Part shown: piece after piece, positions 16,355 through 55,675 of the stretch
Position numbering within the stretch: position 1 is the first letter of the stretch
Layout: each line of letters opens with the position of its first letter
Assembly (NCBI GenBank): GCA_964017145.1
Contig: OZ024840.1
Span: forward strand, 806,001 to 870,000
Reading direction: 5' to 3'
Length of the DNA: 64,000 nt
Origin: Agrocybe praecox
Lineage: Eukaryota; Basidiomycota; Agaricomycetes; Agaricales; Agrocybaceae
Program-made: the position numbers and the translations under genes
Notes under the pieces: model-generated
What the model was told of the DNA's origin: nothing
The model's input: the letters and a program-made list of their open reading frames with translations, nothing else
Databases searched by the model: none

Positions 16355-16791
16355 TGTAATTTCTCCAGACACGGTCCCGGAACAGTACAGGAGATATTCT
16401 GAATTTCTGATTCAAGATGACCTGTACTTAATTATAACACACATTGCTCCGGTAGTATGTCGGAAAAATCAAAAAAGGCGTATCAGTCATTGCGCCTGCT
16501 GATGGACCTATATGTACTGACAATCTTTTCTAGGTGGAGCTATCAGTACATAATCAGTGCATATATAAATTTCGTCACCTCATATCAGCTCCTCATATTT
16601 ATGATAACGACGTAGTCGTTCCGATATCCTTCCTTAGACCATTGCATCATATTCCGTAAGAAAAGATTCGTGTACATCAGTACTGATCTTCTCCTGCACT
16701 GGTAATTATCATGTCCTTCAACTAGTTATCAAGTCATCGTTCATCAGTGTGGAATAAGGATTACATGGCAAATATAGAGATTGTATTGTTA
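16355..16791. other. Intergenic between convergent genes
   Basis: It separates the end of BTB member 5 from the 3' end of the Plavaka gene. No gene was seen and I could not identify a terminal inverted repeat of the Plavaka element here. Confidence 0.45.
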
Positions 16792-19700
16792 TTAGATCCA
16801 TTTATTTAGCCGTATGAACATGTCACCGTCAACTGTGTCCATCGTATAGAATGATCTGTTATCTGACTCGAAGGCGGGACACATTAGTGCCCCACGTACA
16901 AGATATTTTATGAGTAAGAAAGATGATTCTTTTTCCTCCGTAAGAACTTGACAACCGTGCCACTTTGTATTTGGCTTCCAATGACTTTGAGACCGAAACG
17001 AATGGATTAATGCCATATCAACCCATTTTCCTGAAGGTAATCGGCACCGTAGCAAAGCACGCAGGCGTGCTATGGATGTCTCTGGGCCTTCTGTGTTGAT
17101 AATTGCGCAGTCATACCGTTCACGTTGATGGAAGTTTGCATTACACCGCAGGATATCACGGGCCTCAGACCAATCTTCCATTGACTGGTAAGTGAGATAA
17201 AGGCATTTGTATACTTCGACCTGGAATTGATTGATGCAGCATTTGCTAAGTTTCAGAATAACGAAGAACATAGAATGGGAGCGGCATACAAATATTACAT
17301 CCTCGTATCGTGGGATATCAGATGGGAAACTGTGCGAAATGAAAGAGCGAAGGCGTCCATCAAAATCATGGAAATCATGGTTTGACGAGAACTTCCGTTC
17401 CAATTCTGCTGTGTTGAGTCGAGCTCCGTCACGAGAGCCAAGTCTCCAGTGCAGCTCAGATTCAGTGTGCAACGAAGCGTCAGGAATGGGATCTTGCCCT
17501 TCGGCTATCCCAGTAAGTGCCCGAGATTTTGTGTTATCATCAACGGCCATGCGGATTTGGGCAATCGCTTCCTGATTTTCGTCAATTCTTACCATCTGCA
17601 ATGAATGTAAGCGCGTTAGAAAGAGTTCGGGAGTACAGGAAATGGGTCACACTTGGAGTTCAGCCTTTTTCCTGTTCGTCTGCTTGTATGCTTGTGCTGA
17701 CTCTTGTTGAAAGCCTTCCCCGGGGCGTGTTGAGGTGTTATCGGTTGTCCCTTTTTGGCGTATGTCGGGGATTATATGCGAAACATAGTGTTGCTTGAAA
17801 AAATCAAAATTCTTGCCGTACGTATCTGACACTTTCTGGTAGGGTATTAAATAAAGCTTTCAAAATTCTGCCATAGGTAACCAAATAAAACTTACCGAGC
17901 ACCACCTTTTATACACCTTTATCTCCTCTTTAAGATGCTCCAGTCGACTCTCTGTCATGCAACGAAGTCCAATAATGATTCGATATCGCTGATAGGAGCG
18001 GATGCAGTGAATGAGTGGGGAGTTCTTAGGGAGAAGCTGTACGATGCACGGCAATATACACTATATTCCGTGTCTCTGATGTCAGGGTGGTCATAAAGAT
18101 AGTATCGAAGACCAACAGTACCTTTAATATATCATAATAGCTCTGGCCGTCTGTGAACGGGATGGTTGAAACATGGTTGAAATGCTTTAAGTTTGTCCAT
18201 GGAGGAAACTCGCGCATTCTACATGTTGACGGTTGTCAGAGTGTAACGGGGCCAGATTATAAAAAAACGTACTTCGTAGTCAATTTCCCAAGACACTTAT
18301 TATCCTCTAAGATCTTCTCTAACAGGGCCCATAGGTGCTTGCCCCACTTTCTTAGATCGTCCGAGTGAAGAGTATCATATGAGCACACAGCATATGGGTC
18401 CGAAAATCGAAAATCCCATAGGAAATGCTATGATATGTCATGTTAGTTACTTGATGCAATATTGCTTGAAATCCGATCTGACCTTTACATCATGCAGTCC
18501 ATACACCTGGAGGATCTGTTCCTTTGCGGTCTTTGATATCATGCGAGCAGCGCGCTCAAAGACAGAGCACATAGAGTTGGTTGTACGCTGTTCAAAATAT
18601 TTGGTGATGTTGTGAAGTTCCGATTTCGATACAAGGCACTTGGGGCATGGGAAGTTTGCAGTTGCTGCACGGCAGGCGCAAAAATAAGCAGATTCTTCAC
18701 CATCCTGTGACTCAATCAGCATTCCAGGGTGTAGAATTCGTGTTACATTGTCGTTGCATATATGTGCTTCACCAATGTGTGAGCGGCATCCTAGAGGCCC
18801 AAAGATTCGCGATAAGATAAGTTGGTACACTTCACGTTTGAACTTTGCAAATTCCACCGTTTCCGAGGCGTTTCGCTCACTTGGGTCTTCGGGATCGTCA
18901 ATCTTGAGGTCATTAGTACGGAACTGCATTTTCAAGGTATCAACACTCACAATGGGCATATATCCTAAAAGCATGCCTCCTCCGTTTCCAGATGCATTCC
19001 GAATACTTCGTGGAAGCCATGCCGCACGAAGTACCATTGGATATTTTTTTACTCGCCGTGTCACAAGTCCTTTATCAAGCCAGAAGTGAAGTGGCAGATA
19101 GGAGTGAGGGTATATGTCGTTGTCTGGGAGGGAAGACTGTAACTTATAAATTAGCTGGTCTTGTTTTTTCTTTTTAAAAAAAAGGAAGACTTACATCTAC
19201 TTCCCACCACGTTTCTGCAGTATTTGGCTCATCGAAAATATGTTCCTCAAAACTGCCCCCGTCTCGGCACAATACTTTGCGAACAGAATTCCAACAGCTG
19301 ACTGATGTTAACGATTTATCTTGAATGAGGTTCAGAATGTATTCCCAGGGATCTCGATATTGAAATTGAAATTTGTGTAATTCCCCTTTATACATGGCAG
19401 CTACTTCGTCGTACTTGAACTAAGCCGAAGTAAGACTCAGAATATATAAGATAAAATAAAGACTATACCTGCACCACATATGCTCGTGCCTTTGAAAGAG
19501 ACTCCTGCATATCGTCGTAGTTTTTGATAGTTAGTCGGCTTTCACCAGTAGACCATCTGTTGTGAAAGCCTGCTAATTGCTTATCGACTAGATCCTTGCT
19601 GAGAAGGCCTTGAATGGCGGTCTCAGTGTATTCAAAATCGGCCAGTGTTTGAAAAGGTGCCCAAGGTTTATACACAGATTCCGGAACATATGGTTTGAAT

Positions 19701-20269
19701 GCAGAGAACGTACTCTGCCCAGTAAGAGGTATGATTTGTGCGTCCCGTTTGACACTGTGCGGATGAGGAATAATCTTCAAATAAATTTCAGGCAAATTCG
19801 GACCATAAAGTATTGCCTCTGTATTCTCTGATCCCGGATGCGTTGATTGCGGTGGAACTATTTTGTTTTAAACATTCGTAGCAATGTTCTGATTCTTTAA
19901 CTCTCACCACATTGCACCAATAAATTTTCTCCTTCAGACAGGGTACTGTCTGAGGCAGTGGCTACATCTGCGGCACTGGCAGGGATAACCTGGAATTTTA
20001 GAACGTAAGAAAACACACTGAGAATTGGTCGAAAAATTGTGACTCACACTTATGTCTGATCTCGGCTTATCTTTTCTGTGTAGAGATCTGGAGCCTGCAG
20101 TCTCGTTGACGCTGTGGACGCGATGTCTGGCTTGCCAGATAAACTTGCAAGAAATTTGGTGTTTTTTGTACCCACAGCGATCCCGATTAGCGTTGCAATA
20201 CTGACAAAATATGTAGAATTCATCAATTTTTTGCTTGATGCTCTTCGTCTTTTGAGTTGTCCGAGGCAT
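16792..20269 (-). CDS. Plavaka-type DNA transposase, apparently intact
   Basis: A multi-exon gene read from 20269 down to 16792. The N-terminus has a zinc-finger-like FCQYCNANRDRCGYKKHQISC segment. Then come the family blocks: KPWAPFQTLADFEYTETAIQ with NRWSTGESRLTIKNYDD (19463-19795), YRDPWEYILNLI and WWEVD (19174-19395), DNDIYPHSYLPLHFWLDKG and GGGMLLGYMPIV (about 18900-19130). FPCPKCLVSKSELHNITKYF and ILQVYGLHDVK (18480-18670) follow. Further blocks are WDFRFSDPYAVCSYDTLHSD, TDGQSYYDILK, NSPLIHCIRSYQRYRIIIGL and HYVSHIIPDIRQKGTTDNTS, ending in the 269-codon final exon. These match the order known in Agaricomycete Plavaka transposases (CACTA-like DDE enzymes that cut and paste DNA in the nucleus). 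I found no stop or frameshift that splicing cannot remove, but about ten introns were judged by eye. Confidence 0.85.
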
Positions 20270-20551
20270 GGAGATGAGTGATGGCTTCCTTATAGATGGC
20301 TCCCTTATAAGTTATGTTTACCTACAGTTTAATCATTTGCTCACTTGTGTGGGGTGTCGACGAGCGCTGCGCCGCTGGTTAGCTCATAGCGTCACCATAC
20401 ATATGTGATCAAGTGGATACATTCAGGGATGGCCTGTTCAATGTGGAGCTCAAATCAGTCTAAAGATTCAGAGACTGTATAAAAGACGATGCGAAAATCC
20501 GAAGAAAGACGTTAAAATATCATCCAACCTTACTTACTTTATCCAAGGACC
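20270..20551. promoter_or_regulatory. Bidirectional promoter region (inferred)
   Basis: 282 bp separate the divergent ATGs of the Plavaka gene (20269, minus) and the split gene (20552, plus). Both would have to be expressed from this interval. No clear TATA pair was identified. Confidence 0.4.
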
Positions 20552-21628
20552 ATGCCATCAACTTCCCAGCCTACTGCTCACGAAGATCGGTCTGTGTCCC
20601 CTGAGGTTACACTAAGTGTTACGACCAGCCCATCGAAGTTGATAAAGGTATGCACTGCATCGTGGACCTTACAGAGACACGTAATATTTCTCATGTGATC
20701 ATCTTTATTGCCTGTTTATGTGACAGGTTGCCCGTGACCTTGAAATTGATAGGAATGCTGCTCAGGCTGAAATTAGAGAGCTACGACGAAAGCTCGCTGA
20801 TATCAGTAACCAGAGCGACACCGACGACGAAACCCCTGCAAAGAAGGCGCGCAGCGATAGCAAGAGAATCGATGCAGACAGGATTCGTGAAGACCAGGAA
20901 CAAGTTGCACAAGCCGGGCATCTCTATACAATAATGTACGGCCTTTGGCTCCATCTTGCGGACAGCACATTCAAGACGAAATATGTTCAAGATTTTTCTG
21001 AAGCGGAGAGGTTTGAGAACATTGATAACAAAGTGCAGGGAGAAATACACGAGATAATGGAGATTTTGGGTCCTCGTCTCTCTCAAGAAATTTCAGAGCC
21101 TTGGGTTATTAAAGCGGTACGTTTAGACATTTTATTTACGATTTTCAGTTTGAGTTTAATATTATGAGGTCCTATAAAAATAGTTCACGAGCGCGATGCG
21201 GACACAACGCTCAAATACAGCAACTCGCCTTCGTCACCACTGTGCCGCCCTGTTCGATGTCTCTGACAATGACATGCTCCGTGCAGAGACGCGGAAAGAA
21301 AAGTTTCGAAGCCGTATCGGTTGGGTGGAAGTAGACGGTGGTGGCTCATACTCCAGTGCTGATGTCGAAATTCTTCACAAAGATTTCAAGGGAACCTATG
21401 ACATCAATACTGTGTTTTTGAATCCAATTCTCATGCGGGTAATTAAAAGTCATCAAGCTTGTCTGTTAAAACATAGTGAATAACAAATTTATTTAAGGTC
21501 TTTTGTGCTATTATTCGTGGTCCATTGTCTGCTAGGGGAATGATACATGGTGCCATCGCATCGAATCCAAAGAACGACACCATGGCTCGGAAGCATCGAA
21601 TTCGAAACATCACGCCAGGCGCAATAGC
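20552..21628 (+). pseudogene. 5' half of a multicopy Agaricomycete gene, split by a KDZ element
   Basis: Exons 20552-20647, 20727-21116, 21184-21438 and 21498-21628 are in phase and end inside the codon run GCA ATA GC. Features: a charged coiled segment (EIRELRRKLADI), a basic KKARSDSKR stretch, then the conserved blocks MYGLWLHLADSTFKTKY, QGEIHEIMEILGPRL, AMRTQRSNTATRLRHHC, SYSSADVEILHKDFKGTYD and VFCAIIRGPLSARGM. I recall this as a repeated, unannotated Agaricomycete family often found near transposons; function unknown. The reading frame resumes exactly after the second copy of GCAATAGC at 34225. Divergence from the Plavaka gene over 282 bp suggests it may be a Plavaka companion gene, which is inference. 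Confidence 0.82.
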
Positions 21629-22150
21629 CAGCCTGTACCGTCAAATATATGTATCATTAACCCTTAGTTGCCCAAATCAAGTGATGCATCCACAGTGGTA
21701 AGTACCCAACTGCCCAAATTGATGCATCACAGTATCTGTGTTACATGTTTTGGTTTCTAGTTATTAATAGTCATCACCTCATGGAGCCACCGGAACAACG
21801 ACTTGAGCACTGCCTCTGATTGTTTCTATTCTTGTATGGTTTCTATTTTAAACGAGTTTTTGATGCAATCATTTTAAATTTCTTTTCCATGTTTATATTA
21901 GTCATCACAGAAAACATATTACTCTCACACAGCCGTCAAGAAAACATTCGAGTTTTTGATGCGATCATTTTTAATTTCTTTTCCACGTGCCTCTATGTTT
22001 ATATTAGTCATCACGGAAAACATATTACTCTCACATAGCCGTCGAGAAGAAAACATTATATTAATGTCATACAGTATATGATGGGGGACAAAATAGACAG
22101 GGCATGAAAAGTAGATACAACTATGTATTAACGGTTGAGTGAGATATTGA

Positions 22151-25100
22151 TTAAGTGAACACATCGTCGCCGAGTTGAGGAGGATAAAAGTGGGGGTTGT
22201 TTGCTACTGGAGGAGTGTGTGGACGTAAATCGGGAGGTGGGAGATTGAGGTCTTCATTGTCATCCCTGTCGTCACCATCAACAGTTGAATTGTCGTCGTC
22301 CTCGTCACCATCGTTTTCTCCATCGTCGTTGTTGTCGTTAATTACCTGGGATTTGGAAACGCGCAACTCATCGATATTACGTAGCGGTGTACGCCAAATC
22401 TGTTGGAATTTTGTTGATAACAAACGTTGAAGCGCGGCCTGCTTGTCGGCGTACGCACATAATCCTTCTCGTAGTTCTGGACTTGTTGCGTTTCTTGGCA
22501 CCCTTCTCGCGTCCCACCACTCGGCTCTCCACTTGAGAAACTCAAGTAACCGCCTCATTTCCTCTTTCAGGAGTTTAACTTCCTCCTTACAACGAGAAAC
22601 TCTCGCTCGACTCCTGGCCCACTCAGCACGGCAGATATCGTCCTCCTCTGCTCCTGAATTGAGCTGTTCAATATCGATCTTGTTCTCCTCTGCTCCTGAA
22701 TTTAGCTGTTCGATATCGGCCTCGTTCTCCTCGCTATTGCTGTGCCTGGCATCCTGTGAACCTACGAGGGTATTGCCCTCTGAAAAATTCATCCAGATCC
22801 AAGAGATTTTCTGTCTGGTTCGTCCTGTTCCTTCTTTACGAGTTCGAGTGGGTGGGATGACTTCAATTTCCGGATCATCTTCATACCCGTCGCTGTCCGC
22901 CTCGTTACCGTTGTCTAACGCATGATTCACCTGTCCGCCTGCCACTCCGCCAGCAGCCACTGCCACACCTGGCTCTTGCCCGTCCTCCCATATCCCTCGT
23001 CGGCCTGGTCCGATCTTCTTTCGTTCTGGATCTGCATAGCTCCGAACGTCACTGTTGAGAAGTGGGCGAAGAACATCCTCCCAGTCGCCTGGTCCACAAA
23101 TGTTCATTTTCGCACTTCGCGCTGCTCGGTACTTGTCAACAGCAGCCAAAGCTCTTCTATGAACCTTGTTGATGAGTTCTCGAGAGCGGGTGCTTTGAAC
23201 TTGCCCCCTGATGTTCCTATTCTTGAACTGGATCATTCGAGTCTTCACTCGAAGGGCGTGGCGAAGAGCATGTAAGGCGTCGTGGCACTGAGCTGTCCGA
23301 AGCCGATCTTCGACACCGGGAAGACCTGGAACACAACATGAGGGCCGCCGATCTGCTGGTAATTGAGATGGGAGCCACAGCTCGACTTCTTCGGGATGGA
23401 GACAGTCGTTCCAGTTCACTGGACCACCGCTCGATGATTCAACTTGTAATTGAAGCACGCCGGGCATGTATACTGCTCGGATGAGCTCCCAGGCCTGGAT
23501 TTTCTTCGAAAGCAGAGTTCTTTGATCTTTGAGCGAATCATCTTGTAAGTTTTTCGGAACATCTCCCTGTTCGTTGACTGATTTATGTAGTCGGCGTCTA
23601 CAAAATTATTATTTCAAAATCAACCACGAATCAGAAAGGGTACGCACTGCGAATCTTCAATGTCTAGCCCTATTGACAGAAACTCTGAAGGGCCAGTAGC
23701 ATGTACCCTAGAGTGACCAGCTATCCTTTTCTCCTGCGCCAACTCCTCCTTTGCCAACTCCTCCCTAACCTGAGCCTGCGTAATTGCTGCGTAATTTATT
23801 TTTAGAAGTGTATGTGAGATGTACTTCAAGAAACTTACTTGCGCCCGCCACCTCGTAAGGGTTGGGGCATGCCTTTGGATATGGAGCAGCATCCCAGGCG
23901 TCACACATTGCCTCCCATTTCGCCACCGTTGACGGAGAAATGTCATTACTGAACCCGCGATGGGCCTCGGTCTGTCGGTTCCTTTCACCGATGGCGGCTT
24001 TGAACTTGCGGATAAGAGTAAGGCCTGGTTAATGTCAGTACGAGACAAAGACTCTTATTGAGTTGAAATACTTACCCATGCCACAATACTTCTTCCAGTT
24101 CCAGAAGCCAAAGTGGTCATCCAGAACGTCATGGCGTGACCCAGGGCTCAGATTTTTAGTCGATCCGCCGACACCATTATTGCCTGACCATCCTCGTTCA
24201 GGAACTTCTCCGTCGGTAAGGCCAACCCCCTTGACAAGATTAAATGAAAATTGTTGATGATCCTTGTCGTTGTGCGCAGGCTCATGAAATTTTGGGATCA
24301 GGGGTTGCGTCTTCATATGCGGATTGATTTGTAGATGTTCCGGCCAATGTTTTTCCATTCGATCGGCAAGATTCTTGTACCATTGGCATGCGATGTCGTA
24401 GCTGATGATAATTGAGGATGCCTTCGACTTCTGAATTGATGACGCGAATATGTAGTCCATGTTCGCGTACCTTATATCAAGTTAGTAACACGTCGGAAGA
24501 ACGATTTGAACCAAGATAACCGTGCGTACCTCTCACCCTTTTGCAAATTTCCTACACCTTGAGGCAAAAACATCTCGCCCCTCCCACAAAACGCACCGCC
24601 AACGCCCGTGTATCTAAGCCCTCGACTGAATCGTGTTAATGCTTGCGAAAGGGCCTGAAATCCAACGCATGTACTCGGCTAGAATATTCATTAGCCCAGT
24701 TTCAAAAGCGACAGTCGAACTAGCATAAAACTCACATCCGCGTCATCAGCTCGACTTAACACATATTGCTCGTACGGTTCGCGACGTATCATGTAGGCCA
24801 TACCAATTCCGAGACCTGGATCTGCCGAGTAGTTGGAGACTAGTTGGTTCTTCAGTCGAAAGTTGGCGTCCAAACAGACGATGGGCTGATATAAAAACCT
24901 GAAGAAAAGATAAGTTAGCTTCCTGGCGTAGACAAAAAGTGAGAAAATATGGATGTACGCACTGTTTCTCTTGGGGTGCATCACGCCAGTTATCTGGAAT
25001 ATTGATGCCTTCATGAGGACATGTGGGGCATAATATAGCGAGCTCGCCATCCGCTGTTCCCGCTATTCCAGTGTCGTTGTGAGCTCTCCCTCCTCTCTTT

Positions 25101-26205
25101 AACAATTTCAAATGTCTCCACTGCAACATACCCCTCATGAGCGAGCGATATCTTGAGGTGGTCGGCTTTGCTGCAGCATTGTCCGTCATTCGCTCCAACG
25201 TGTGATATATGTCGTACATCGATGTCTTTGAACACAGACTTAAAATATGGAGAAGTCGAAGAAGAGGGAAAGTGATGCATGTACGGACGACTTTCTGTGA
25301 TGATGGATATAACCCGCGACGCAGCAGTTGGATGTGATGGGGGATCGCACGATGACATCCACAGTAACTGAGCGCAATATCGTGGACGCCGTTCGTATGA
25401 ATGATTTTGAAATCTCGATGGCAGTCGATGGGGAGCGGGCATCTCATGCTAGCGTGGTTGAGATGTATCTTGAGACCTAGCGATTTTAGAGTGACATTAA
25501 CAAATGTCGTGGCAACCCATTGCTGCGCGGTACAACATCAGCGTCACGTTCGGAGAAAGATATCGAGATTTTGGTACTCACCTGGATAACATGGAATGGA
25601 TTCTGTCTATGACGTTTCACGCAGCATTCTTGGCACACGAGATCCGGGGTAAAACAGTCGAGACAACGATACTCTGCATCGTTTGGCAAGAGTTTCTTTC
25701 GTGCCACACAGTCCGGACATTGTGAATCCCTCATAAAGTCACCCCTGCCGTCCCATCGAGCTTGTTCATCAAGGTAATCGCTACGGAACTGATTTTTCCA
25801 TTGAACGTGAACCCTTTCCTACGATTTGTTTTCGCAGTAAGTACATGGACGATGTGCATGGATGCAAAATTGATTACTTACAGATATCTTGTTCCTGATT
25901 CTTTTTTTTTTGGGGTGATTTTCTTGGGCATGCGAAACCCTGCTATCACAGACTTGAACGTCGACCTCCTCATCATACCAATCCCCCGAGCTATCAAGGG
26001 ATAGCTTGTCGTCGTCGTCGGGTGCCCAAGCTGTGCCAACCGTCCAAGTTGTACGGCCTTTGAGTGGCGAGCGGGACGTTTCGAGCGGGATATTTCGACT
26101 ACTGGTAGTGGATGAGCGAGTGTGTAGGACCTCGAAATCGTCTTCGAGAGGGATACGGTCATGATAAACCCCCAATTTGCTGCGTTTGAGTTTCTGTGTT
26201 GTCAT
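22151..26205 (-). CDS. KDZ transposase with CxC2 cysteine cluster
   Basis: A multi-exon gene on the minus strand. The first exon from 26205 encodes an acidic/basic leader ending KKKRIRNKIS. The second has the CxC2 cluster CPDCVARKKLL...RCLDCF...VCQECCVKRH (25486-25700). Then DFKIIHTNGVHDIALSYCGC and FPLLRLLHILSLCSKTSMYD (25010-25450) and the core blocks IISYDIACQWYKNLADRMEK, IPKFHEPAHNDKDHQQFSFN, GVGLTDGEVPERGWSGNNGV and GSRHDVLDDHFGFWNWKKYC (24035-24460). The C-terminal exon (22151-23467) has WNDCLHPEEVELWLPSQLP and CHDALHALRHALRVKTRMIQ with a coiled-coil/acidic tail. These are diagnostic of Kyakuja-Dileera-Zisupton transposases, DDE nucleases acting on element ends in the nucleus. The tail repeats ENKIDIEQLNSGAEE-like units. 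It appears full length and without unexplained stops. Confidence 0.88.
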
Positions 26206-26924
26206 GACATATACCCAGGTATCCCACTGAAGTCCACAAGCGGAATTTGGCAGCTAATGACATCATAGCACATGACCGCTCACGGTTTGATCAACGAAAA
26301 ACACGTCCGAGTTTTGTTCTCAATCCCTCCACAATATTTGGGAGGCTGTGAGTAAGTCCTTCATCCAGGTTCAACATGTTATAACTTACCTTTTCTCTTT
26401 TCTTGATTTTATGAAGATATCTGGATTCTTGGCGCTCTGAGCGCTCATCACTTTGTAAATTCTTTTTTGTTCTGATTATCGATTTACTTGCTGATTGACG
26501 TTAATGTTAGGAAAAATGGCCCATATTCAGTGAGTCCTCACCACCTGCTAATGGTGATGAAGGCTTAATTTCCATCCACCAAGGCTTCCATGCCAGAGCT
26601 CGTCATATGGGACGGAAGGTACGTCTTTGTTTATCACACATTGTCATGCCCAAGTTCTAACACGAGTGATCATATTTAGCACGTCAGTGCAAATTATCAA
26701 CGCTGAATCGCGGATAGCCGCTGAATTCACCACCGGCGGCGTATTTAGTATCTCAGTGGCTGGCGTATTTTGGACCGTTTGCTGGTACCTACATATTCCA
26801 TCATGGGACTCGGAGGTCCTGCGTTTTATTGACCCAAGCCTCGTTACATGAACAGATGCTCGACTTCTGCCAGACGGTATCGCCCACGCTCGAGGATTAT
26901 TAGGACTTCCCTCACGACCTCAAT
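26206..26924. other. 5' flank of the KDZ gene
   Basis: No supported coding sequence. It should contain the transposase promoter; no motif stands out. Confidence 0.4.
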
Positions 26925-27180
26925 GACATCCCACGTATCGCTGTCTCCGTCCGCATACATACCCTCACGTATCGCCGTCTCCGTCCGCATACATACCTTC
27001 ATTGCCTCTATGCCCTCTTCATATCGCTTTCCTGTGCATCATCTCTCATGTATCGTCGTCTCTGTCCGCATACATACCCTCACGTATCGCTGTCTCTGTC
27101 CTCATATATACCTTCATTGCCTCTATGATGCCCTCTTCACATTGCTTTCCCATGTATCATCTCTCATGTTTTCAATCATA
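26925..27180. repeat. Degenerate minisatellite, about 120-bp unit x2
   Basis: The phrases CCGCATACATACC, CTCACGTATCGC, CTTCATTGCCTCTATG and CATCTCTCATG recur in the same order twice, with a shorter inner repeat of the first two. Confidence 0.75.
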
Positions 27181-27312
27181 CATACTTTAAATAGATCATT
27201 TCGTATCATAGCACTACATCTTTTAACTCAAGTATATTTTGAGCTTGCCGTTCCCTTGAAGTGGATGAAGTATAGGGAACAAAACTTGGTGATGAGGATA
27301 TGAAATATATAT

Positions 27313-27830
27313 ATATTAGCAGATATATCCCAAGCAGATAGTACACTAGCAAATGGACGACAATGACGAGGAGCATGCCAATATAGTAAGCGATAGAAGA
27401 TAGCGTTGAAAGCAAGAGAAGAGGGTATGATGCTTAAACATACATAAATATATTAGCAGATATATCCCAACCACATGGTACACTAGCAAGTGGACGAGGA
27501 GCATGTCAATATAGTAATAAGCGATAGAAGATAGCGTTGAAAGCAAGAGAAGAGGGTATGATGTTTTAAACATACATAGTACTTAGAATAGTATACGGAA
27601 TCGTTCGTTGATGGAGACCATTCCACATTCAGATATATTAGCAGATATATCCCAACCACATGGTACACACGCAAGTAGACGAGGAGCATGCCAATATAGT
27701 AATAAGCGATAGAGGATAGCGTTGAAAGCAAGAAAAGAGGGTATGGTGTTTTAAACATACATGGTACTTAGAATATACGGAATCGTTCATTGATGGAGAC
27801 CATTCCACATTCCAATCGCTTTGCAACTTT
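27313..27830. repeat. Tandem repeat, three units of 137-190 bp
   Basis: Units start with ATATTAGCAGATATATCCCA at 27313, 27450 and 27635. Each continues through GCGATAGAAGATAGCGTTGA; units 2 and 3 also share ACGGAATCGTTCGTTGATGG-like sequence (about 27595 and 27780). Open frames on the minus strand are just the translated repeat. Confidence 0.82.
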
Positions 27831-28240
27831 GAGACAATCTTCTTGATCAGGCCCAACTTAGATAATAGACGCTCGCACCCAGACCGTATCTCGTGCTGTT
27901 ACTCGTGCTGTTAGCAATTTCGATAGCTTCGTCGACAGTTTCGTAGAGAATTCATTCTTGATTAGCAATGGCCATACTGGTATCTACGGGTCCAAGAACA
28001 GTAGATTAAAAGTAGCATTGAAGTAATATCCATCTTCGTGGTAAGGATGTTTGAATTCTCAGCAACAAATCCTTCTGAATTCTAACACAACTGAAGAGGT
28101 TACTTACTGTAGGGTATTTAGAAGAGCCACAGATGTCCTGCTATGATCAATATCAATTCGGTGGGTAAGTGGACTATTCACAGCAGTTGATATTTTTCTC
28201 ACAAGGATACATAGTACATACTGACAATGTCTTAAAAATT

Positions 28241-28330
28241 CTACAGGACAAGAACGACGACGTCAAGCTGCTCAGAAATACAGGGCTAAAAATATAGACA
28301 TGCTCCGTATGAATGAGCGACTCCGTCGGT
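28241..28330 (+). pseudogene. Basic-region (bZIP-like) exon fragment
   Basis: Between an acceptor-like CTACAG and a GTATGC donor lies a frame reading RRRQAAQKYRAKN followed by MLRMNERLRR. The spacing resembles a basic-leucine-zipper basic region, or the short Arg-rich exon common in repeated Agaricomycete genes. No complete gene could be assembled, and the solo LTR lies 25 bp downstream in what would be the next intron. Confidence 0.35.
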
Positions 28331-28355
28331 ATGCGTACGTCCATTGCCTCAAGCC

Positions 28356-28833
28356 TGTCAGGGCAACACTATAATCAGTGTGACAAGGCCACCAACAAAG
28401 ACAAAGCAAGAGAGAAGAGAGAGAAGAGAGAGAGAGGAATAGATAGAGATAGAGAGACACTCAATGATTCTAAGAGATCACACCAATGATAGTGGATATC
28501 CTAAGAGATTGAAGCTGGGGCTACAGCTACATACATGTCCAGTATATATACCCTACAGCTATTCTGGAATATTCCTCCATGACATCATAGAAAGGAATGA
28601 TGAGTAAGGCAATGACATCATAAAGAAAGTAAAAGAATAATGTGGAATGATGTAGAATGGATGAGGCTATGCTCATGGGAAATTAAAGTGATAAGTATCT
28701 AATCAAATGATAATCAAGAGATAATCAAGAGATAATCAAAGATATGAAACAGATAAGATATCTACACATCTACAAAAGGGAAAAATGCGAAATAAATATA
28801 GAAAAATAAGGAAAAATAGGGGAAACCCTGACA
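28356..28833 (-). mobile_element. Solo LTR of the Gypsy family at 49155
   Basis: 478 bp in reverse orientation, starting TGTCAGGGCAACACT and ending AGGGGAAACCCTGACA, flanked by perfect 5-bp duplications AAGCC (28351-28355 and 28834-28838). It is similar along its whole length to the 517-bp LTRs of the complete element, with scattered substitutions and a shorter GA/CT tract. It is therefore older, and the internal region was lost by LTR-LTR recombination. It sits inside the KDZ element and so arrived after, or travelled with, that element. Confidence 0.93.
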
Positions 28834-29550
28834 AAGCCCGCCTCGAGTCCATCTGAATTGCTAAACCAGTGGTATGCTCCAGTGAACGGCGATCCCAGAA
28901 CTGAAACTTACAAATCGTCAAATTTACGACCCTGGCTAGTATATACTAATTTACATGAGAACTTCTGAACCATGAGTATTACCACATCTTATGCACCAAT
29001 TATCTGGGTTAATCCATGACCGACAGAGAAGTTCTCGAACGGCTCGGAGGGGGTCTGTATGTTATTCATCGCTTCACGGTGATGGATATCACCACGGCTG
29101 TACCATACACACGGATTTGGAACTTCACGCGATCGCGTGTAGCTAGGGCGCTAATGCACGATTCCGATCCCTAGGCTAAACTCAAAGTAGTACCCACTTA
29201 ACCATATATATACATGAAATACATGATACAAACCTATAATTAAATATTGAGATTTGGCTGGAATGCACCAACTAATAGGATTTTTCTGAAATAAGCAACG
29301 GAGACCTGATCTAGGGTATTGACTCATCAACAGCCGAAATTTGAACCCAGAACAGACCGATCCTAGAAGTTTCGAGCAAGCGCATTTACGTTCAGGGACT
29401 AACTGATAGTTCAGTGAGTAGGCTCCGACAGGACCGGTAAAACACAGTCATTTATTAAATACTAGCTAAAGTATGGGAGGGGTATGTATAGTGAAAGAGT
29501 GAAAGAAATGAACATAAAAGGAAGGATCAGTGACCACCGATGGTCTTGGC
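28834..29550. other. No gene seen
   Basis: Unique-looking sequence between the solo LTR and the 219-aa gene; no motif or repeat recognised. Confidence 0.4.
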
Positions 29551-30377
29551 TCACATGGCGATGCAGGGAGCGGGCTTGTTGCTGGTAAGCTCATCATCAG
29601 CGAGCTCATCATCAGATGGGTTGGCGGCAACAGTAGAGCGGTGACGGCGAACTCGAGTGGATGCACGGTGAGCAGTCCTACGTCTCTTGCGAGAGTTTTC
29701 CTTGGCATGAGACCCTCGAGGAGTTGGATCCTCATCTTCATCACTGCTGATAACAATGGGGTTCTCCCGACAACCACCATTTGCCATCTCCTTGACAAGT
29801 TTTGTCAGGGCGCGGAGGAGGAAGGGGGCAACAACATCAACGTTGGGGGCATGAGGGAAGATGACGTGGACACCAACAGCATTGGCCGTCTCCCCAACCT
29901 CAACCCTTAGAGTGATAAATATAAATGAGTCAAGAAGTCCAAAATGAAACCATGAGCAGACTCACGCATTATTGGCGAGCAACCACTCAGGAGTTCGGAC
30001 GTGTTGCATAACCTTGACTCCAGAGGTTTGAATGAATGTCTGCTGATTGTAAGGGGCTATGACGATGTCAGAGAATGTCGGATAAGGATAGAACTTTAAA
30101 AAAACATACCATCTTCGTTCGGGAGGCGACGATGGGTTCCTTTTCTATCGGACTGAGCGAATACAACAACAGTATCTAATGATGAGTGAGCTAACGAATA
30201 AAGAGCAAGAGAACAAAATTATTACTTACCTTGGGTTTGGTTGAAGCCAGGGGCGGGAACCCGGACAACCTCAACTTGAACAGGGTTGGCAGCAAGGGCA
30301 TTGGTGGTGTGGCCAGGGTTGGGAATCTGGACAACCTCAACTTGAACGGCGTTGGCAGCAATGACGTTGGTCGACAT
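29551..30377 (-). CDS. Small nuclear-type protein with SUMO-interacting-like motif and NLS (219 aa)
   Basis: Four exons: 30230-30377, 30110-30175, 29966-30056 and 29551-29905, all in phase. Donors are GTAAGT, GTATGT and GTGAGT; acceptors are TAG, TAG and AAG. The first exon holds an internal duplication (AANAVQVEVVQIPNPGH / AANPVQVEVVRVPAPGF). The middle has TVVVFAQSDRKGTHRRLPNE and FPHAPNVDVVAPFLLRALTK. The C-terminal third has PIVISSDEDED, a hydrophobic core followed by acids as in SUMO-interacting motifs. It is followed by SRKRRRTAHRAS and RVRRHR, a likely nuclear localisation signal, and a second acidic patch. I do not recognise the family. Its position inside the KDZ element makes it candidate cargo or an accessory factor for the transposase (inference). 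Confidence 0.75.
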
Positions 30378-30875
30378 GTTGAGGTACGAATGAGATTCTA
30401 CAAGGTGAGGTGGGTGGTGTACATCGCTCTAGGTCTATCTTGGTTATATAAGACCTTGGAAGGCAGAAGCGAGATTGGATAAATCGAGTATAGTGCCGTT
30501 GGAGGGGTCGCTGTGGAGGGTGTTATCGTGGTTGGGAAAAAAGAAGCGTGGGTGACCGCGTCACCAGCGAGTTACGCTATAGTTCGCTTAGTTCGCGTGT
30601 CACACGGTGTTGAACGTTAACGAACCCTGACCTATACCTTTTAGGATCTTTTGTGCGCTTATCGCGACTGTTGGCCGTCAATAGTAATCCGTTACTTTGG
30701 AAATATACGATTCGGAGCATGGAATAAGGGATTGGAAACGTAAATATGAGTTCAATATGGACCGACATTTATTTTTTTGCTCACTGTGGTACGTTCAGGT
30801 TTTTTTTTGTTCGCTTCTCATACCTGCGGTATACGAGTCCTCTGCTCCGCCTCTCCCTTCCCATAATAATTTCTG
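30378..30875. promoter_or_regulatory. Intergenic between divergent cargo genes
   Basis: 498 bp between the divergent 219-aa gene and the gene at 30876; presumably holds both promoters. No specific motif identified. Confidence 0.35.
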
Positions 30876-33545
30876 ATGGTTAATCCAGGCTCTTTCACGC
30901 CTCTCAGAAAACAATTCCTCTTGGATCAGCAGGATATCTATGCCGAGGGTGCATCCAAAGGCCTCATCGGCGATACTATTGCTAATATTCAAAGGCGCTA
31001 TTTCAAGCGCTTTCCGCTCTCTTTGGCGCACGATCAAGAACCTACCGAAGAATGGCTTTCAAAAGTCGACGACGATGCTCCTGATGAAGAGATCCCGGCC
31101 CCATCGAAAGAGGATATGGAACCAGAAGCCTACGCAAATGCTCTAGCCATATACGAGGTGAAGGCGGAGCAATTGAAATTTCGTAAAGAGGTGGGCATTT
31201 TCTTCTTGTTTAACTACATATATTGTTACTGACTGGTATACAAATTTATTTTGATAGCAAATCCGGCGTCGACTGCACTATCAGTACACGAAATCGAAGG
31301 CACCTTCGAAATTCGAACTCTCGCCATCAGATCCGATGGCGATTCTCATATCGCAGATCAATGGATCTTCCATGAAAAAACCTCGACTACGAACTGGTTA
31401 CAATATCTGGGGACCAAAAAATCGTGTCATTGTCGATCCAGTCTTTGAACAGTGTGTGAAGGATAACTGCGTCCCTCCGAAGAAACAAGCCGCTTTGCGA
31501 AGTCAGTTATACAAGGAATGTTTCGACCGACTTCCAGCCGAAGAGCGGCAAATTTGGGAAGATCGTGCTAGATCCGAACATCAAGCAGCTCTTCGTGAAT
31601 TCAAGGACAACGTCAACAAGGAGCCGTCAACAGAACCAGAGGCCCGTCAAAGGTATGTTATTTTATATTTTCATTCTAACATCTTATTTACTATGTACAA
31701 CAGAGCTATACACAATCTCCCTTCTTTTGCACAACCTGTGCTCGACCTTATCGCATCGCATACCGGCTGGAAGGTCACCCTAATCGCTGGCGGTCCAGAA
31801 CCAGCAGACCAGGGTCGCTTGAATATGATAAGGTAGGCTGTTATTCATGATTAACGCACGAAATTGCTCAAATTATTTATTAAATCAGTATTCACTCTGG
31901 CGAAACGAAAGGCAATGTTAAGATGAACTTTGGCAAATCAGAGAGACGCGCATATAAGGACTATGTTGTACCAATATTCAGAAATTTTCTCAAGAAATGT
32001 TATAGTATGTTTCTGTCGCTTTTTCTATTCTTAGCTCAACGTTCTTACCTAATCCGTTAACAGCTGTCGAAGAATGTCGCGCCTCTGTTCTGAACAACGA
32101 ATATGCATCGCTTGCAAAGACATTATCTGACGAAGATGGTGGTCTATTTACGCTGGACTCGGCAGAAGACTGCAGCAACATAAAAATCACTGCACTTGCA
32201 ACATCAAGATCTGTCTCTGCCGAATCCAGCTCATCAACGAAAACTACTTCAACGCTCAACGCTCCTATCGGGGGAAGAGTCAATTTCCTCAAGGTATGTA
32301 GATACGGCAAAATAAAAACATGCAATTATTCACATAATATTTCAACAGGAAAAAAGTCTACCTACCAATAGCCCGCCTTCTATGGATCAAAATTCCGTCA
32401 TACCAACTATATCCACGCGTCCATCTGCTGTCGAAACAGAGAGGCAGAGATCCAAATCACCTCCAATTTCGCCACCGGTTTCCCCCACAGCCTCCCCCCG
32501 ACCAACACTTCACTCGCTCGACGAACATACGGTGTTTGAACATGTATGCGGCTTGCTCGGTGTGTCGCCCTCGATGGACTCGATTGGTCGGCAAGAAAAT
32601 AATGCTGCCAATACGGTGATCAGCCCAACACCCGGCCAATGATTGCTGGTTCGTCCACGATGTGATGACTTGGAAGAAATGGCAACGTTGCACGTCAATA
32701 AGCGACCTAGGCAATCTCCTTCGAAGTCCATTTCCGTCAGTTCAACCCAACAAACATCACCGCAATCTGGGCTTGACCTACTGGCGATGTTGGCTGTGGA
32801 TGGCTATAACATGCAGCGAGGAATCACCGTTGGCCGTACGACCACCCCAGCTGTAGATGTTGACACAGGATCCCCTTCTGCCCATACCTCGACACCGGAC
32901 CTTATGAATGCCCAACAAAGCGAGGTCGATACGGATAGCATGCGTGCAATTCCGACTTTATCATCGCCGTCTATGGAAGCAAACATCAACCCCGAATCCT
33001 CTGGTGTCGAGACTCCAACGCGCGAGCATCTCAATTCCACGCACCAACCGGCCGCATGGTTCTCCGATGCCATCAAGCTATACCGTTCGCAGCTTATGTG
33101 CAAGGAGTGGGATGCTCTACTATCTAGCTGGGCCCGCTACCAGGAAGAAGCTTCGAACTATATGCATGACGGCAAGCTCGGTTTCGCTGGACGTCCTCCC
33201 TGTATTGGAACGTGGATCAAAAGCGCGCGTTCTCCGACGTTTAACCCAAGAATCTCCAATATCCGACAGTTTAAAGAACAGTTTAGGACTTGGTGGGCTG
33301 GCTTGCAGCCGGAATGGAGGGTCGACGCGAAGACAGGGATATTAAAGCAGCCGAGTGTGAGGGGTGACTTGGAAATCTTCAGGAAACCAGGCAAGAATGG
33401 CCTGTACACCGTGGTAGCAGCGTTATGGTTCTGGGGTTTGGCGGCAAAGGGGAAGAAAGGTATCGGTGGTGAAAACGCATGGAAAACGGCCATTAACGAT
33501 GTTGTATGGGTCATGGATGGATTGGTCAACTCGAAATATGCTTGA
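30876..33545 (+). CDS. Large transposon-associated Agaricomycete protein, one in-frame stop
   Basis: Exons 30876-31190, 31258-31652, 31704-31832, 31889-32004, 32064-32293 and 32349-33545 are all in phase. In the last exon a TGA at 32640-32642 interrupts an otherwise continuous frame. To that TGA the product is 492 aa; past it another 300 codons stay open in the same frame to 33545. N-terminal half: an HMG-box-like segment (GYNIWGPKNRVIVDPVFEQC ... EERQIWEDRARSEH) and NVKMNFGKSERRAYKDYVVP. C-terminal half: CKEWDALLSSWARYQEEASN, GRPPCIGTWIKSAR, WWAGLQPEWR and GKNGLYTVVAALWFWGL. I recall these blocks, in this order, from a repeated uncharacterised Agaricomycete family. The TGA marks recent decay, readthrough or a sequencing error. 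Function unknown. Confidence 0.75.
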
Positions 33546-34224
33546 TTCGTATCTTACGGGGTACGTAAATCATTATCCTACGTTTTTCTCTTCCTTCCTT
33601 TTCATCTTTTTCCATTCACCGTCGTCCGCTTTTCTCTCTTTCATATTCTCAATGTTACATATTCATTCCTTTCATCTTCTCCACCAACGGGCGTATATAG
33701 ACTTCTATTCATTCGTCGCTTTTCTTGATCCTACCCACAAGCTATACTCGTCTTAATACACATGCGCCACACTTACATATATCTTGCAAGTTTATTTGAC
33801 CTGGACTCTCTCGTACTTACGTCTACGTGGCTCTTGAATGTTTTTCTACACACCTAATTATCTTGTGTCTGGCATAATTTTCGTATCAATATCAATTATC
33901 GTAAATATAATGAAATGAACTGCACGTAAGCGAAAACATGTGATCTGATATTAAAAATATACCTCAGCGTGAAAATAAAGTGACCGAGGCATCTATAATT
34001 AACTCAATCTGTAAATAGTAGCATCGGCGGTGCCTTAGAACATGCCGAGTTGCCATTGTGTGCCGGAGCCGTAAAAGGATGTCACATATAGTCACACGAC
34101 GCCGAAATGCCATATGTGTGTGGTGGTATGCATCATGTCGGGAGTTGGGTAGTTATGGGCCTGGATGCATCACTCATTTTGGGCAACTACCAGTATATGA
34201 TACATACAGGTGTCAGTAAATGGT
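33546..34224. other. Right end of the KDZ element
   Basis: Non-coding. The right terminal inverted repeat with its two GTTGCCCA/ACCCAACT-type motifs lies at about 34130-34224. The rest is AT-rich without a gene. Confidence 0.6.
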
Positions 34225-34622
34225 GCAATAGCAGCAACTGCAGTATTGGTACGATTTTATTCTTGCTATATTTTTCTCTCATCCTGAACATTAATTAAAA
34301 TACCTAGGCTCGCTGGGCGCTTTCGTGTGACGATTCTTTTCAAAGTGTTGGACAAAACACAGGCATTCCCTATGCTCAAGATTTCGACGAATATCTTGGA
34401 TTCCTTATGTCCGGTCTTCGAAGGAAGAAGAGGAGCGTCTTGAATCTCATTCGCGAATGGGACCAAATTGTCTTCCCAAATTCGGAATCAAGTCTTGTTG
34501 ACCGCGATGCCAGCTCGAGTGGCTTCAAGATTGCCATGCAGATGCTCGACGACGATGAGATCGAGGACAATGCCACTTCCGTACTAGACGAATCCAATGG
34601 TGACTCTAACGCTGAAGATTAA
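34225..34622 (+). pseudogene. 3' half of the split gene
   Basis: After the target duplication 34225-34232 the codons read A-ATAVL to a GTACGA donor (34249). After the acceptor at 34307 the last exon reads ARWALSCDDSFQSVGQNTGI, GFLMSGLRRKKRSVLNLIRE and WDQIVFPNSESSLVD, ending at a stop at 34620-34622. The frame is exactly that of the 5' half ending at 21628. This family normally continues GAIA(S/A)...ARWALSPDE, so the two halves are one gene. Confidence 0.85.
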
Positions 34623-34924
34623 ACAATTTGTTCATTTCTCAAGTCATACAAATCAATATATTAACTAGCGATCTGTGATGTAAATAAATGTAGTAATAAA
34701 GTTCAGAATGTAACATTTCGGTCCTTGTGTATGTCTGTGTTGCTTGGTGTAACCATCTTCGCTCCAAATACATGCTGTTAGAACACTCCTCTAATGCGAC
34801 CTATTAGTTTCTCCAAATATGATGTGCTCCACAGTATAGTGAAAATGAAGCTCCATCGTTGGCGCTGTTGCGCAGTCCTGCGGAACATAAAAGACAACGA
34901 ACCTATCGAGAAATCCCCAAAATC
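34623..34924. other. Intergenic
   Basis: About 300 bp between the split gene and the coiled-coil gene; no feature recognised. Confidence 0.4.
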
Positions 34925-35649
34925 ATGAGTAACATTCCTCACCGCAAACCAATTCCCTTATATCCCAATCCTCCTTCACCACCCCATGATGGCCCAGAAT
35001 CCGAAGATTACTCCTACTTCCCCCCTATTCGTATTGGAGATGACCCACCTCTTGTTCAGCCCCGCCAGCCCCACATCCGAGTTGAACATCATAACTCGCC
35101 AGCTGGATTTGACTCAGAGAACAACGGTTCACCCCGGAAAATCACGACTGCTACATCAAAGGCTCGGCTCGGGGAAAGAAACATTCTGAACACAACGGGT
35201 GCTGAGACAGTGAGTCCTGAGCTCCTTAATTGACGAAATGAAAGACTCAACCCTATTGATGTGAGCAGCAGGGCCCAGCTTCCACATCGAAGCGTAAACC
35301 AGCATGCAGTATCCCAGCGAAAACAGTGAGTTTAGACTTCAACAATGGAAAATACAGCTTACTAGTTGATTAAATATAGATCCCGAAGCCTACCAAATCG
35401 CAGACCACGGCAAAGCGCAAAGCTCTAGACCACGACTCGGATGTCGGTGACTAACACGAACATCAACAGCCACCTATAAAAAGAAGCTGCCTCACCTTCG
35501 TCTTTGAGGACGACATGGAGTGGCTTAAAGGGGAGATCAAAGAAATAAAGGACTATATTCGACAGGTGGTTGATAAAGGGGAGGAGGAGAGGCAATGTAT
35601 CGATGATAAGTTAGACGAAATTTTTCACCAGGTCCATCAGCTTTCTTGA
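34925..35649 (+). CDS. Small basic/coiled-coil protein with internal stop and possible alternative acceptor
   Basis: Exon 1 34925-35209 (Pro-rich, IPLYPNPPSPPHDGPESEDY), exon 2 35269-35325 and exon 3 from 35380 are all phase 0. Exon 3 reads IPKPTKSQTTAKRKALDHDS and then meets TAA at 35452, giving 138 aa. The same frame continues open to a TGA at 35647 with PIKRSCLTFVFEDDMEWLKG and a coiled coil (EIKEIKDYIRQVVDK, DDKLDEIFHQVHQL). A second acceptor, CAG ending at 35469 and preceded by a branch-site-like CTAAC (35451-35455), is also phase 0. Using it would skip the stop and join exon 2 to the coiled coil. So this is either an alternatively spliced gene or a fresh pseudogene. The family is not recognised. 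Confidence 0.6.
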
Positions 35650-36264
35650 CCATCATGACCATGACAATGCGAAATACAGTGTACTCTTTTAATGTATCAT
35701 ACAGTCCTCTCTCATCTGTTTTAATATAAAGTGTAATCATATGTGATCATTTACCATTTCTGACGACTACATGGGTTGTTACATGATATCTAATATGGTA
35801 TACTAGTCTCATCCAACGCCCTGGATGAATTGCCCCTATTCGTACTGGTTGATGATGTCAGAACTGATCCTTGTGTTGATTCGTAAATGCATGGATCCGT
35901 GCTTCTCACCCTGGTATGTCTTAACACTGTTATCAAGTCTTATGAGAAGTATCACAGGTTAACCGACGGATTGGTAGTGAACCGAGAGATCACACATTGT
36001 CGAGCTGATCAGGTGTGTTCATTGTGGATGAGAAACTTCTGAGCAATATAGCCACGGTCAGTTCTTGCCAAAGAGATGACCATTATCAGCATGATAAAGC
36101 GTACTCAGAGTGGATGAGAAACTTCTGAGGAATATAACCCCCCCGAAGAGGTGACGGTCTGATATGTGAATATCTCGCAGTATATTTTAATATTTACTGA
36201 TTTTGATTTTTCCGACATACTTCTCTGTTCAGTTCAGTCTAGTTCAGCATCGGAATCATATGAA
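35650..36264. other. No gene; short direct repeat
   Basis: GTGGATGAGAAACTTCTGAG occurs twice, near 36022 and 36110. Otherwise there is nothing recognisable. Confidence 0.45.
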
Positions 36265-37490
36265 GTTACATAGCTAGCGCTCGAAACGTCACAAGCGACT
36301 GAGAACTCTGTATAAAATAGTCCTTGATTAAAGACCTGCCTCGCTCGATTCAAATGATAATTAAATTTGTTGAAAAGACCCATTTAAGAAATAAAAGTAC
36401 ACCTTTTGGAATGTTATATTAGGCACTATGGTATAGATATAAGGTGTATATATATATATATAGAGAGAGAGAGAGGGGAACAACGACCAATTGTTTTTTG
36501 CTGGTCAGTATAGAAAAGGGTGACATGTATGTGTAATCGTCGTTGCAAGCGGAGAGGAGAGAGGAAGGTCGTCAATGAGCGTGATAGGTACAGACTCGTT
36601 AAATGAGTCCGTCCGGATAATGGGTAGGAGTGAGGAAGAGTTAGGATTGTGTGCATGGAATATACTGGACAAGAAAGAAAATCGAGAGAAGGGGAAGGGG
36701 TGACTATAATGGACAGCAGGGCAAAAAACAAACGGTAAGAGAATATACACATAATAAAGTAAGAGCAATAATAGATGATAGAAATACAAATAATCATAAA
36801 AAATCGAGAAAAACGCAAAAAAGAGATCAAGGAAACACACCGTCCTGTTCGCTCAGAGCTCGGGGGCTAAAACTCGAGCGAGCACTATAATACTCCATCG
36901 AATCCTCGCCCGACGTGCTCGTGCCTTCTTCCTCTTCCTCCGGCACTTCTCTCAGGCTCGCATGGGCATCAGCAGGCAGGAGAAGCGCATTGGCAGCACC
37001 GAACCTCCTTTGTTGATATGCCTCACGAGTGATAATGAGCACTCCGCTGCTTTAGCCGCCGAAATCACCATTTTCGGACATTTTCCGAGAACGGAAGTTT
37101 TTCCCCTTCGCTTTTGTCTGTATCGTTTTGCGTCCAGGACGGTTCGAAGCTTTTGGTAGCTTACGTTCTGCGAAAGATTTCTTTTTGTTTTGTTTCGCTT
37201 GTTTTGTCATTTGTGCTCGTCTTTTTGGTGAGTGGGAGGCAAGGGAGGTAAATGCACAGAGAGCGGCAGAGGCACAGAGAACGAGCTAGCAGCAGGTGTG
37301 AGCGGGCTGAGGAGGGGCTTGGCAGAAGGCGTCAGTGGGCTCGTTGGGCTCGTCAGAGTGGTTGAGGTGGTCAGTTGAGGTAGGGGAGAAGCGAGTGTGG
37401 GGATAATGAGAGGAGGCGACTTGCACGAGGGAGAGTGCGGTCTTCCTAGTTCTCATGCAGTGAAATATTGGTTTTGCGTGCGTGGATACC
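36265..37490 (-). repeat. Duplicated segment copy A (partner at 56455-57470)
   Basis: Long stretches are nearly the same as at 56455-57470, including CCTGCCTCGCTCGATTCAAA, a GTATAGATATAAG plus TA-rich tract, GACTCGTTAAATGAGTCCGT and coding-like sequence (REAYQQRRFGAAN, EEEEEGTSTSGEDSMEYYSA, minus strand). Copy A keeps more upstream Ser-rich coding-like sequence (to about 37700) but is interrupted by a 198-bp insert. It looks like the 3' part of a lost gene plus its flank; no complete gene remains. Confidence 0.75.
37032..37229. mobile_element. 198-bp insert with 5-bp GAGTG duplication
   Basis: Copy B at 57207 reads straight through. Copy A has GAGTG at 37027-37031, 198 bp of unrelated sequence, then GAGTG at 37230-37234. 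On the minus strand the insert has a short Lys/Arg-rich frame. The nature of the insert is unknown. Confidence 0.55.
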
Positions 37491-40535: not shown

Positions 40536-40677
40536 AGCCTGTACTTATCAAAATTCATTAAAATTACAAAGTCGAAATAGGGGAGCACCAATTCTTCGTG
40601 ATACTGATTCGCACACCTTGCTCCGCTAGTGCTTCTCGGTTCAGTTCAGCGTCGGAGTTATATGCTAACCACTTGTT

Positions 40678-45569: not shown

Positions 45570-46204
45570 CAGCCTTAGCAGTTAGATTTATACATGAAAC
45601 CTGGGCAGTTGCCTAGCATAGGTCATACATCAGGGTGGGCAACTGCCCAAGTGGGCAGTTACATATGAGTGCTTATAAAGCGCACCAGAGAGGCCATAAA
45701 GGCTGAGTGAGCGGAATTGGCAGATGCTTTAGTCAAACATATATAAACATTGCAGGATTTGGACATTTTTGCAGTATTTGGGCAATGGCGAAAGAATGAA
45801 TGGGTGGTTTGGGGCGCTTGTTGGGAGGTTATGATCAGATAAATAATCCTGATTTTTTGGCGCCCTTTGCCCCACCAAAAAGGAATGTTACGGGATGGAT
45901 GCACAAAAGCAAAACTGGATGACGCGTTATTTTTAGCTTCTTTTTACAATTTCGGGCGTTGCGCTATTTTTAATGCTTTGTAATCATTTTTTGTACTATA
46001 TTTACTTTACATACATATATCTAGATTAGATTCGATATCCAAAAACAACTTTTTAGTCTATGTTTTAGACGGTATTTCCCTATTTGGCACTTATTGCCCT
46101 TTTGGGCATATCCTTTTACAACATATAAAAACATTCAAAAAATAGTTTATTTTGTATGTTACAGTACATAATATTTGTTAACTAATCTACTGAGGGACAT
46201 GGGG

Positions 46205-47499: not shown

Positions 47500-48252
47500 G
47501 GTGTGTGGCTCGCTCACGACCACCCACTAAGAGGACGACCGCGACGAGGACGACCACCCGCGACGAGGACGACTGCCCACAACGAGGATGACCGCCCACA
47601 ACGAGGATGACCGCCCACACCGAGGACGACCAGCCACGACGAGGACGAGGACTAGGCACGACCACGATGAGGACGAACGCGACGACCACAAGGACGACGA
47701 CGACGAGGGTGCTCACCCACGACGTGGACGACGACGACGAGGCAACGAGTGGGCAGCAATGAGCGCAACGGGTGGGCACCAGAGGCACCAGCGAGCAGAA
47801 CGGGTGGGCACCACCGTTAGGCACCAGCAAGCGCAACATGTACACACCAGCGGGTAGCACCAGCGAGCGCGTAGCAACGGGTACGCACGACCGAGCACAA
47901 CGGGTGGGCACCACCGGTAGGCACCAGCGCGCGCGACGGGTACACAGCAGGGGTAGCACCAACGAGCCTGTAGCAACGGGTACGCACCAACGAGCACGAC
48001 GGGCACGTACAACCAAGCACAACAGGTGGGCACCACCGGTAGGCACCAGAAGCACCAGAGCGCGGGATGGGTACACAACAGGGGTAGCACCAACGAGCCC
48101 GTAGCAACGGGTACGCACCAGCGAGCACGACGGGTACGCACGACCGAGCACAACGGATGGGCACCACCGGCAGGCACCAGTGGCACAAGTGCGCGCGACG
48201 GGTACACACCAGCTGGTAGCACCAACGAGCCCGTAGGTACCAGCGCGTAGGT
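47500..48252. repeat. Minisatellite in right arm
   Basis: A CGACGAGGAC-rich tract then degenerate units ACGGGTACGCACCAGCGAGC and GGGTGGGCACCACCGGTAGG. It is the complement-type counterpart of the left-arm array but longer (about 750 versus 465 bp). Confidence 0.85.
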
Positions 48253-49574: not shown

Positions 49575-49620
<46 letters not shown>

Positions 49621-55578: not shown

Positions 55579-55624
<46 letters not shown>

Positions 55625-55675
55625 CTTTGTCTTTGTTGGTGGCCTTGTCACACTGATCTTAGTGTTGCCCTGACA
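55159..55675 (+). repeat. 3' LTR
   Basis: 517 bp, the same length as the 5' LTR with no difference found on reading, including the length of the CT tract. Confidence 0.95.

Follow-up and report, generated by a model that had tools for sequence, protein, structure and literature searches.

A KDZ transposon nested in a gene carried by a Plavaka transposon of Agrocybe praecox

We analysed a 64,000-nucleotide stretch of the Agrocybe praecox genome (GenBank assembly GCA_964017145.1, contig OZ024840.1, positions 806,001 to 870,000 of the forward strand), hereafter called the window and located at C1:806001-870000 in an assembly of 347 contigs totalling 59.2 Mb, in which a gene of the DUF6698 family is interrupted by a transposon of the KDZ group and is itself cargo of a larger, outer Plavaka transposon. 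We are highly confident that the arrangement is a nest, in which a PlavakaA-type element with a DUF6698 gene later received, in exon 4 of that gene and most likely with a 7-bp stagger, a Kyakuja-like KDZ element whose two further genes (here A and B) are probable accessories. The name Kyakuja reportedly denotes KDZ-group transposons of Agaricomycotina, a usage attributed to Iyer in 2014. The evidence for the insertions was drawn from other contigs (C10, C17 and others) of the same assembly.

The split gene and its uninterrupted copy

The octamer GCAATAGC is found at 21621-21628 and again at 34225-34232, and the sequences outside the two copies are adjoining on C10, where window positions 21500-21628 correspond to C10:72926-73054 (98% identity) and positions 34222-34622 to C10:72536-72936 (99%). 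This empty site (C10:72536-74002) reads CCAGGCGCAATAGCAGCAACT, with a single copy of the repeat and no footprint; over 1,485 gene bases the joined window flanks differ from it by 15 substitutions, with no internal gap. The C10 copy has four GT..AG introns and splices to an open protein of 400 amino acids, in which residue 291 is the last before the insertion point and the DUF6698 domain (Pfam PF20414) occupies residues 239-352 (E-value 8e-11, 42.4 bits vs a cut-off of 23.7). Because C10 holds an uninterrupted copy with an open spliced protein, the halves in the window are one gene and the insertion of the KDZ element into it is confirmed.

A second complete copy of the KDZ element (C17:22249-33820, 11,572 bp) ends at the same bases as the one in the window, within unrelated flanks, and aligns with it in two long blocks (90% and 86% identical) and in shorter ones (72-89%). 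At both junctions of the window element imperfect inverted-repeat arms of about 100 bp are present (21629-21719 and 34135-34225, starting at the junction), and a terminal pattern derived from several copies (at most one mismatch) gave 135 matches in the genome vs one for its reversed control. Taken together, these observations bear out much of a first-pass annotation of this DNA, which had proposed a single KDZ insertion event between inverted-repeat ends, with the frame resuming beyond the insert (as it does in the C10 copy, which splices across the junction), and had set as a test the finding of an empty site with one GCAATAGC, which C10 supplies from within the same genome.

Ends and genes of the KDZ element

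Ten exact right-end sites of the KDZ element were found, seven of which (the window included) were paired with a left end, and perfect 7-bp duplications flank five of these seven elements. In the window (CAATAGC) and in C17 (22249-33820, GGGGCAC) an eighth base also matches, and it equals the element's own terminal G; at C278:21865-32298 (CCTTGCT), C9:1190891-1203063 (GAGATGG) and C5:225-12397 (GATTTAA) the eighth base differs. Furthermore, with the element ending at 34225 (the 7-bp register) 67 of the 110 inverted-repeat positions agree, against 24 with an end at 34224 (the 8-bp register). Since three elements stop at exactly seven bases and the inverted repeats fit only the corresponding register, 7 bp is the best reading of the duplication length; the G at 34225 would then most probably belong to the element, which would span 21629-34225. 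We regard as improbable that the duplications are truly of 8 bp, as in Zisupton/Dileera, and that mutation has since changed the eighth base of some copies: although the window and C17 each show eight matching bases, and duplications of 8 bp are reported for Zisupton and for a Dileera family in the available part of one account (PMC12730594), the match in three other copies covers seven bases and no more, the longer register ruins the inverted-repeat alignment, and the disputed base is the terminal G of the element in all five perfect cases. The perfect 8-bp duplication of the first-pass annotation thus gives way to one of 7 bp, while its element ends, claimed to the base, were nearly right, with the right end moving by one base (from 34224 to 34225). 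Its description of the element as unusually large does not hold either: six other KDZ elements with both ends paired span 10,434 to 12,556 bp, so that a size of 12.6 kb is ordinary in this genome.

The exons of the transposase and of genes A and B were set by hand and checked against the C17 and C5 copies (in C5, on which window exon boundaries were imposed, the readings of A and B are frame-shifted, and only the first 300 codons of B were used). The transposase model, open also in C17, matches the Pfam KDZ family over positions 2-217 of 217 (PF18758, E-value 6.6e-59) and the associated cysteine cluster CxC2 (E-value 1.5e-36), in agreement with the apparently full KDZ transposase gene noticed earlier. 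The ratios of nonsynonymous to synonymous substitution rates (dN/dS) between the window and C17 copies (0.135 for the transposase, 0.129 for A and 0.197 for B) show purifying selection on all three genes. Gene A has no Pfam match. Gene B has a weak HMG-box-like segment (within 31258-31650) and may bind DNA. The possibility that B represents two separate genes was rejected: C17 reads through at the window's stop and has a different one at codon 110, and B is therefore a single gene that was disrupted independently in each of the two copies.

Genes A and B are recurrently linked to KDZ elements. Among the matches listed (a scope that applies to all linkage counts given here, near-identical duplicates included), A adjoins B in divergent orientation at 11 of 11 loci, and B lies within 10 kb of KDZ at 47 of 69 loci (2.8 expected), with Plavaka, as a control, near B at 1 of 69. 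Judging from this linkage and from the selection, A and B probably assist KDZ transposition or help to control it. Descriptions of either gene were not found in the titles and abstract beginnings of the KDZ, Kyakuja, Zisupton and Plavaka literature searched, and an account elsewhere is possible.

The outer element and DUF6698

The similarity between C10 and the window extends far beyond the split gene, spanning 16458-36217 at 98.6-99.1% (except for the KDZ insert and a stretch of 231 bp), and the flanks then differ, the window copy being flanked by TA and the C10 copy by TG. All five copies of this outer family that were checked bear 2-bp duplications (TA, TG, CT, TA and TA). Searches with the left end gave 14 matches (its own included), the other 13 of which begin no more than 5 bases from 16458, and those with the right end gave 10 (its own included), nine of the ten ending within 2 bases of 36218. 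Short derivatives of the family, of about 1.25-1.28 kb, occur at C12:1965528-1966788, C2:1356040-1357323 and C6:3353612-3354864 (duplications CT, TA and TA). To the left of the split gene a Plavaka domain (PF18759) was recognised at 18447-19190 (E-value 8e-18, 65.1 bits vs a cut-off of 26.3), with a second segment, under the curated cut-off, at 19174-19419 (E-value 2.5e-4). The 231-bp stretch that is missing from C10, where the DUF6698 gene is intact, lies at 17482-17712, within the window's Plavaka transposase region. From its domain, ends and duplication, the outer element appears to be of PlavakaA type.

Because the uninterrupted gene sits in a second Plavaka copy, the locus is a transposon-in-transposon nest and not a shown case of damage to a host gene. 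The 'host-type gene' of the first-pass annotation accordingly belongs to a Plavaka transposon that has ends and a duplication of its own, and disruption of a host gene was rejected for the window copy, with an outer transposon bounded in this way around it. It is quite improbable, and for the window copy already contradicted, that the KDZ element interrupts an ordinary DUF6698 host gene, with C10 representing the other haplotype or a segmental duplication. Such an explanation would fit the standing of DUF6698 as a named family, half of whose loci lack a listed Plavaka match within 5 kb; but the similarity to C10 outruns the gene and stops at the TGTCGG..CCGACA ends, the flanks and the 2-bp duplication differ between the two copies, the same ends delimit the short derivatives elsewhere, and a DNA search for the split gene gave two copies only (on C1 and C10), each within a copy of the outer element. 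That the C10 site is the product of precise KDZ excision is very improbable, for although clean excision of cut-and-paste elements is occasionally possible, C10 carries a single CAATAGC without footprint and the Plavaka copies are about 1% apart along their length, consistent with separate copies predating the insertion.

Elsewhere in the genome, 14 DUF6698 loci (merged PF20414 matches) were compared with 71 Plavaka loci (merged from the matches listed); the window and C10 genes are outside the 14, neither having been picked up by the family search, which went exon by exon. DUF6698 lies within 5 kb of Plavaka at 7 of the 14 loci (0.17 expected), in six of them divergently, which is also the orientation of the window and C10 genes towards their Plavaka transposase; as a control, none of the 14 lies within 10 kb of a listed KDZ match. 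In each of two pairs (C7/C13, and a second pair on C4) the members score identically, which suggests recent duplication. With these pairs, and with seven loci lacking a Plavaka match nearby, the association is strong and not universal. From linkage and selection, DUF6698 is probably a helper or regulator of its element. A literature search found no paper naming DUF6698, and a prior description elsewhere is possible. We would put at an even chance the broader proposition that DUF6698 is a PlavakaA accessory protein and not a host family, that KDZ elements carry a conserved A+B module, and that many 'host-type' orphans are selected transposon helpers.

Table 1. Positions of the nested elements, their ends and their genes in the window
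Feature	Position	Strand	Remarks
Outer Plavaka (PlavakaA-type) transposon	16458..36217	.	nested KDZ element included; about 7.16 kb once that is subtracted
2-bp target duplication TA, left	16456..16457	.	outer element
2-bp target duplication TA, right	36218..36219	.	outer element
Left terminal inverted repeat of outer element	16458..16474	+	TGTCGGAAAAATCAAAA
Right terminal inverted repeat of outer element	36201..36217	-	TTTTGATTTTTCCGACA
Plavaka transposase region	16792..20290	-	open exons
Interrupted DUF6698 gene, 5' part	20552..21628	+	KDZ insertion in exon 4; intact copy C10:72536-74002
Interrupted DUF6698 gene, 3' part	34226..34622	+	starts with right target duplication; continues in C10:72536-72936 at 99%
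KDZ transposon	21629..34225	.	12,597 bp; termini CAGCC..GGTG; empty site on C10, full second copy on C17
7-bp target duplication CAATAGC, left copy	21622..21628	.	adjoins KDZ left end
7-bp target duplication CAATAGC, right copy	34226..34232	.	adjoins KDZ right end
Left imperfect terminal inverted repeat of KDZ element	21629..21738	+	67/110 match
Right imperfect terminal inverted repeat of KDZ element	34116..34225	-	pairs with 21629..21738
KDZ transposase	22151..26205	-	9-exon model, 1,199 amino acids, no internal stop
Gene A	29551..30377	-	4-exon model, 219 amino acids
Gene B	30876..33545	+	6-exon model, about 793 codons; in-frame TGA at 32640-32642 breaks window copy
Repeat copy within KDZ element	28343..28833	.	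about 0.5 kb; probably inserted later; further copies at 49151-49671 and 55159-55678

The window holds further repeats. Direct repeats of about 1 kb, in pieces (36301-37435 and 56499-57418, 89-94% alike and 20.2 kb apart), start just past the right end of the outer element and are probably the two long terminal repeats of a retrotransposon filled by later insertions. Long inverted repeats, likewise in pieces (87-95% complementary), occur at 40671-42563 and 61427-63499, some 19-23 kb apart, and inverted repeats of about 0.6 kb (45576-46190 and 48251-48865, 81-92%) flank GGGTGGGCACCA-like repeated units at 47720-48183.

Proposed history and known systems

In the history that we propose, a PlavakaA-type element (with its transposase and a divergent DUF6698 gene) first inserted at 16458-36217, producing a 2-bp duplication, and a Kyakuja-like KDZ element later entered exon 4 of the DUF6698 gene, most likely by cut-and-paste, its transposase making a staggered cut of 7 bases in the target and joining the CA..TG ends, so as to leave CAATAGC on each side. 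Both insertions are seen in their products, from which the cuts are inferred.

Several observations count against parts of this proposal. The window and C17 copies by themselves cannot separate 7 from 8 bp; two of the paired elements (C5:3002689-3015244 and C17:6542-17417) show no duplication (3 and 2 of 7 bases agree), the right-end sites at C3:4073771, C9:792684 and C12:314050 stand outside the seven pairs, and ten guessed pairs of facing left-type ends, which are possibly not real pairs, gave no 7-bp duplication (4 of 7 at best). The seven DUF6698 loci with no listed Plavaka match within 5 kb may include host genes, and the probabilities calculated for the linkage are overstated as evidence because the counts rest on listed matches and include near-identical duplicates. 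Moreover, the placement of the window KDZ element in Kyakuja, which we infer, was made on ends and duplication length, and its inverted repeats of about 100 bp are lacking in the Laccaria families as far as the available part of their description goes, a trait that is perhaps not a defining one.

KDZ and Plavaka elements are abundant yet little described in mushroom-forming fungi, and at this locus the ends of both are fixed almost to the base, an empty site is available, duplications of 7 and 8 bp can be told apart and the genes are inventoried. It also carries a caution, testable across fungal genomes, that genes of unknown function resembling host genes can be transposon cargo.

In the available part of a recent account, the two Kyakuja families of Laccaria lack inverted repeats, have the ends CA..TG and duplicate 7 bp of the target, and PlavakaA (CACTA/EnSpm-like) has TGT..ACA ends and 2-bp duplications (Kojima 2025, PMC12730594). 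As far as that description extends, the window KDZ element resembles Kyakuja in its KDZ transposase domain, its 5'-CA..TG-3' termini (here CAGCC..GGTG) and its 7-bp duplications, and differs, beyond the inverted repeats, in carrying A and B and in that no scanned protein matched TET/JBP. With Zisupton/Dileera, again as partly described, it shares the KDZ transposase domain and, as in Zisupton, inverted-repeat ends, whereas the duplications reported there are of 8 bp and three of the five perfect ones here stop at 7. The outer element agrees with the PlavakaA portrayed there in its Plavaka domain, TGT..ACA ends and 2-bp duplication, and differs in bearing a divergent DUF6698 gene. In Marasmius oreades the inverted-repeat motifs of KDZ and Plavaka elements have been characterised and, by the available portion of that report, both groups are abundant within this one Agaricomycete genome as they are here, in an assembly of 44 Mb vs 59 Mb in A. 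praecox (PMC8290104). Nested DNA transposons and both groups of elements are already known, and we consider the associations with accessory genes to be the interesting part.

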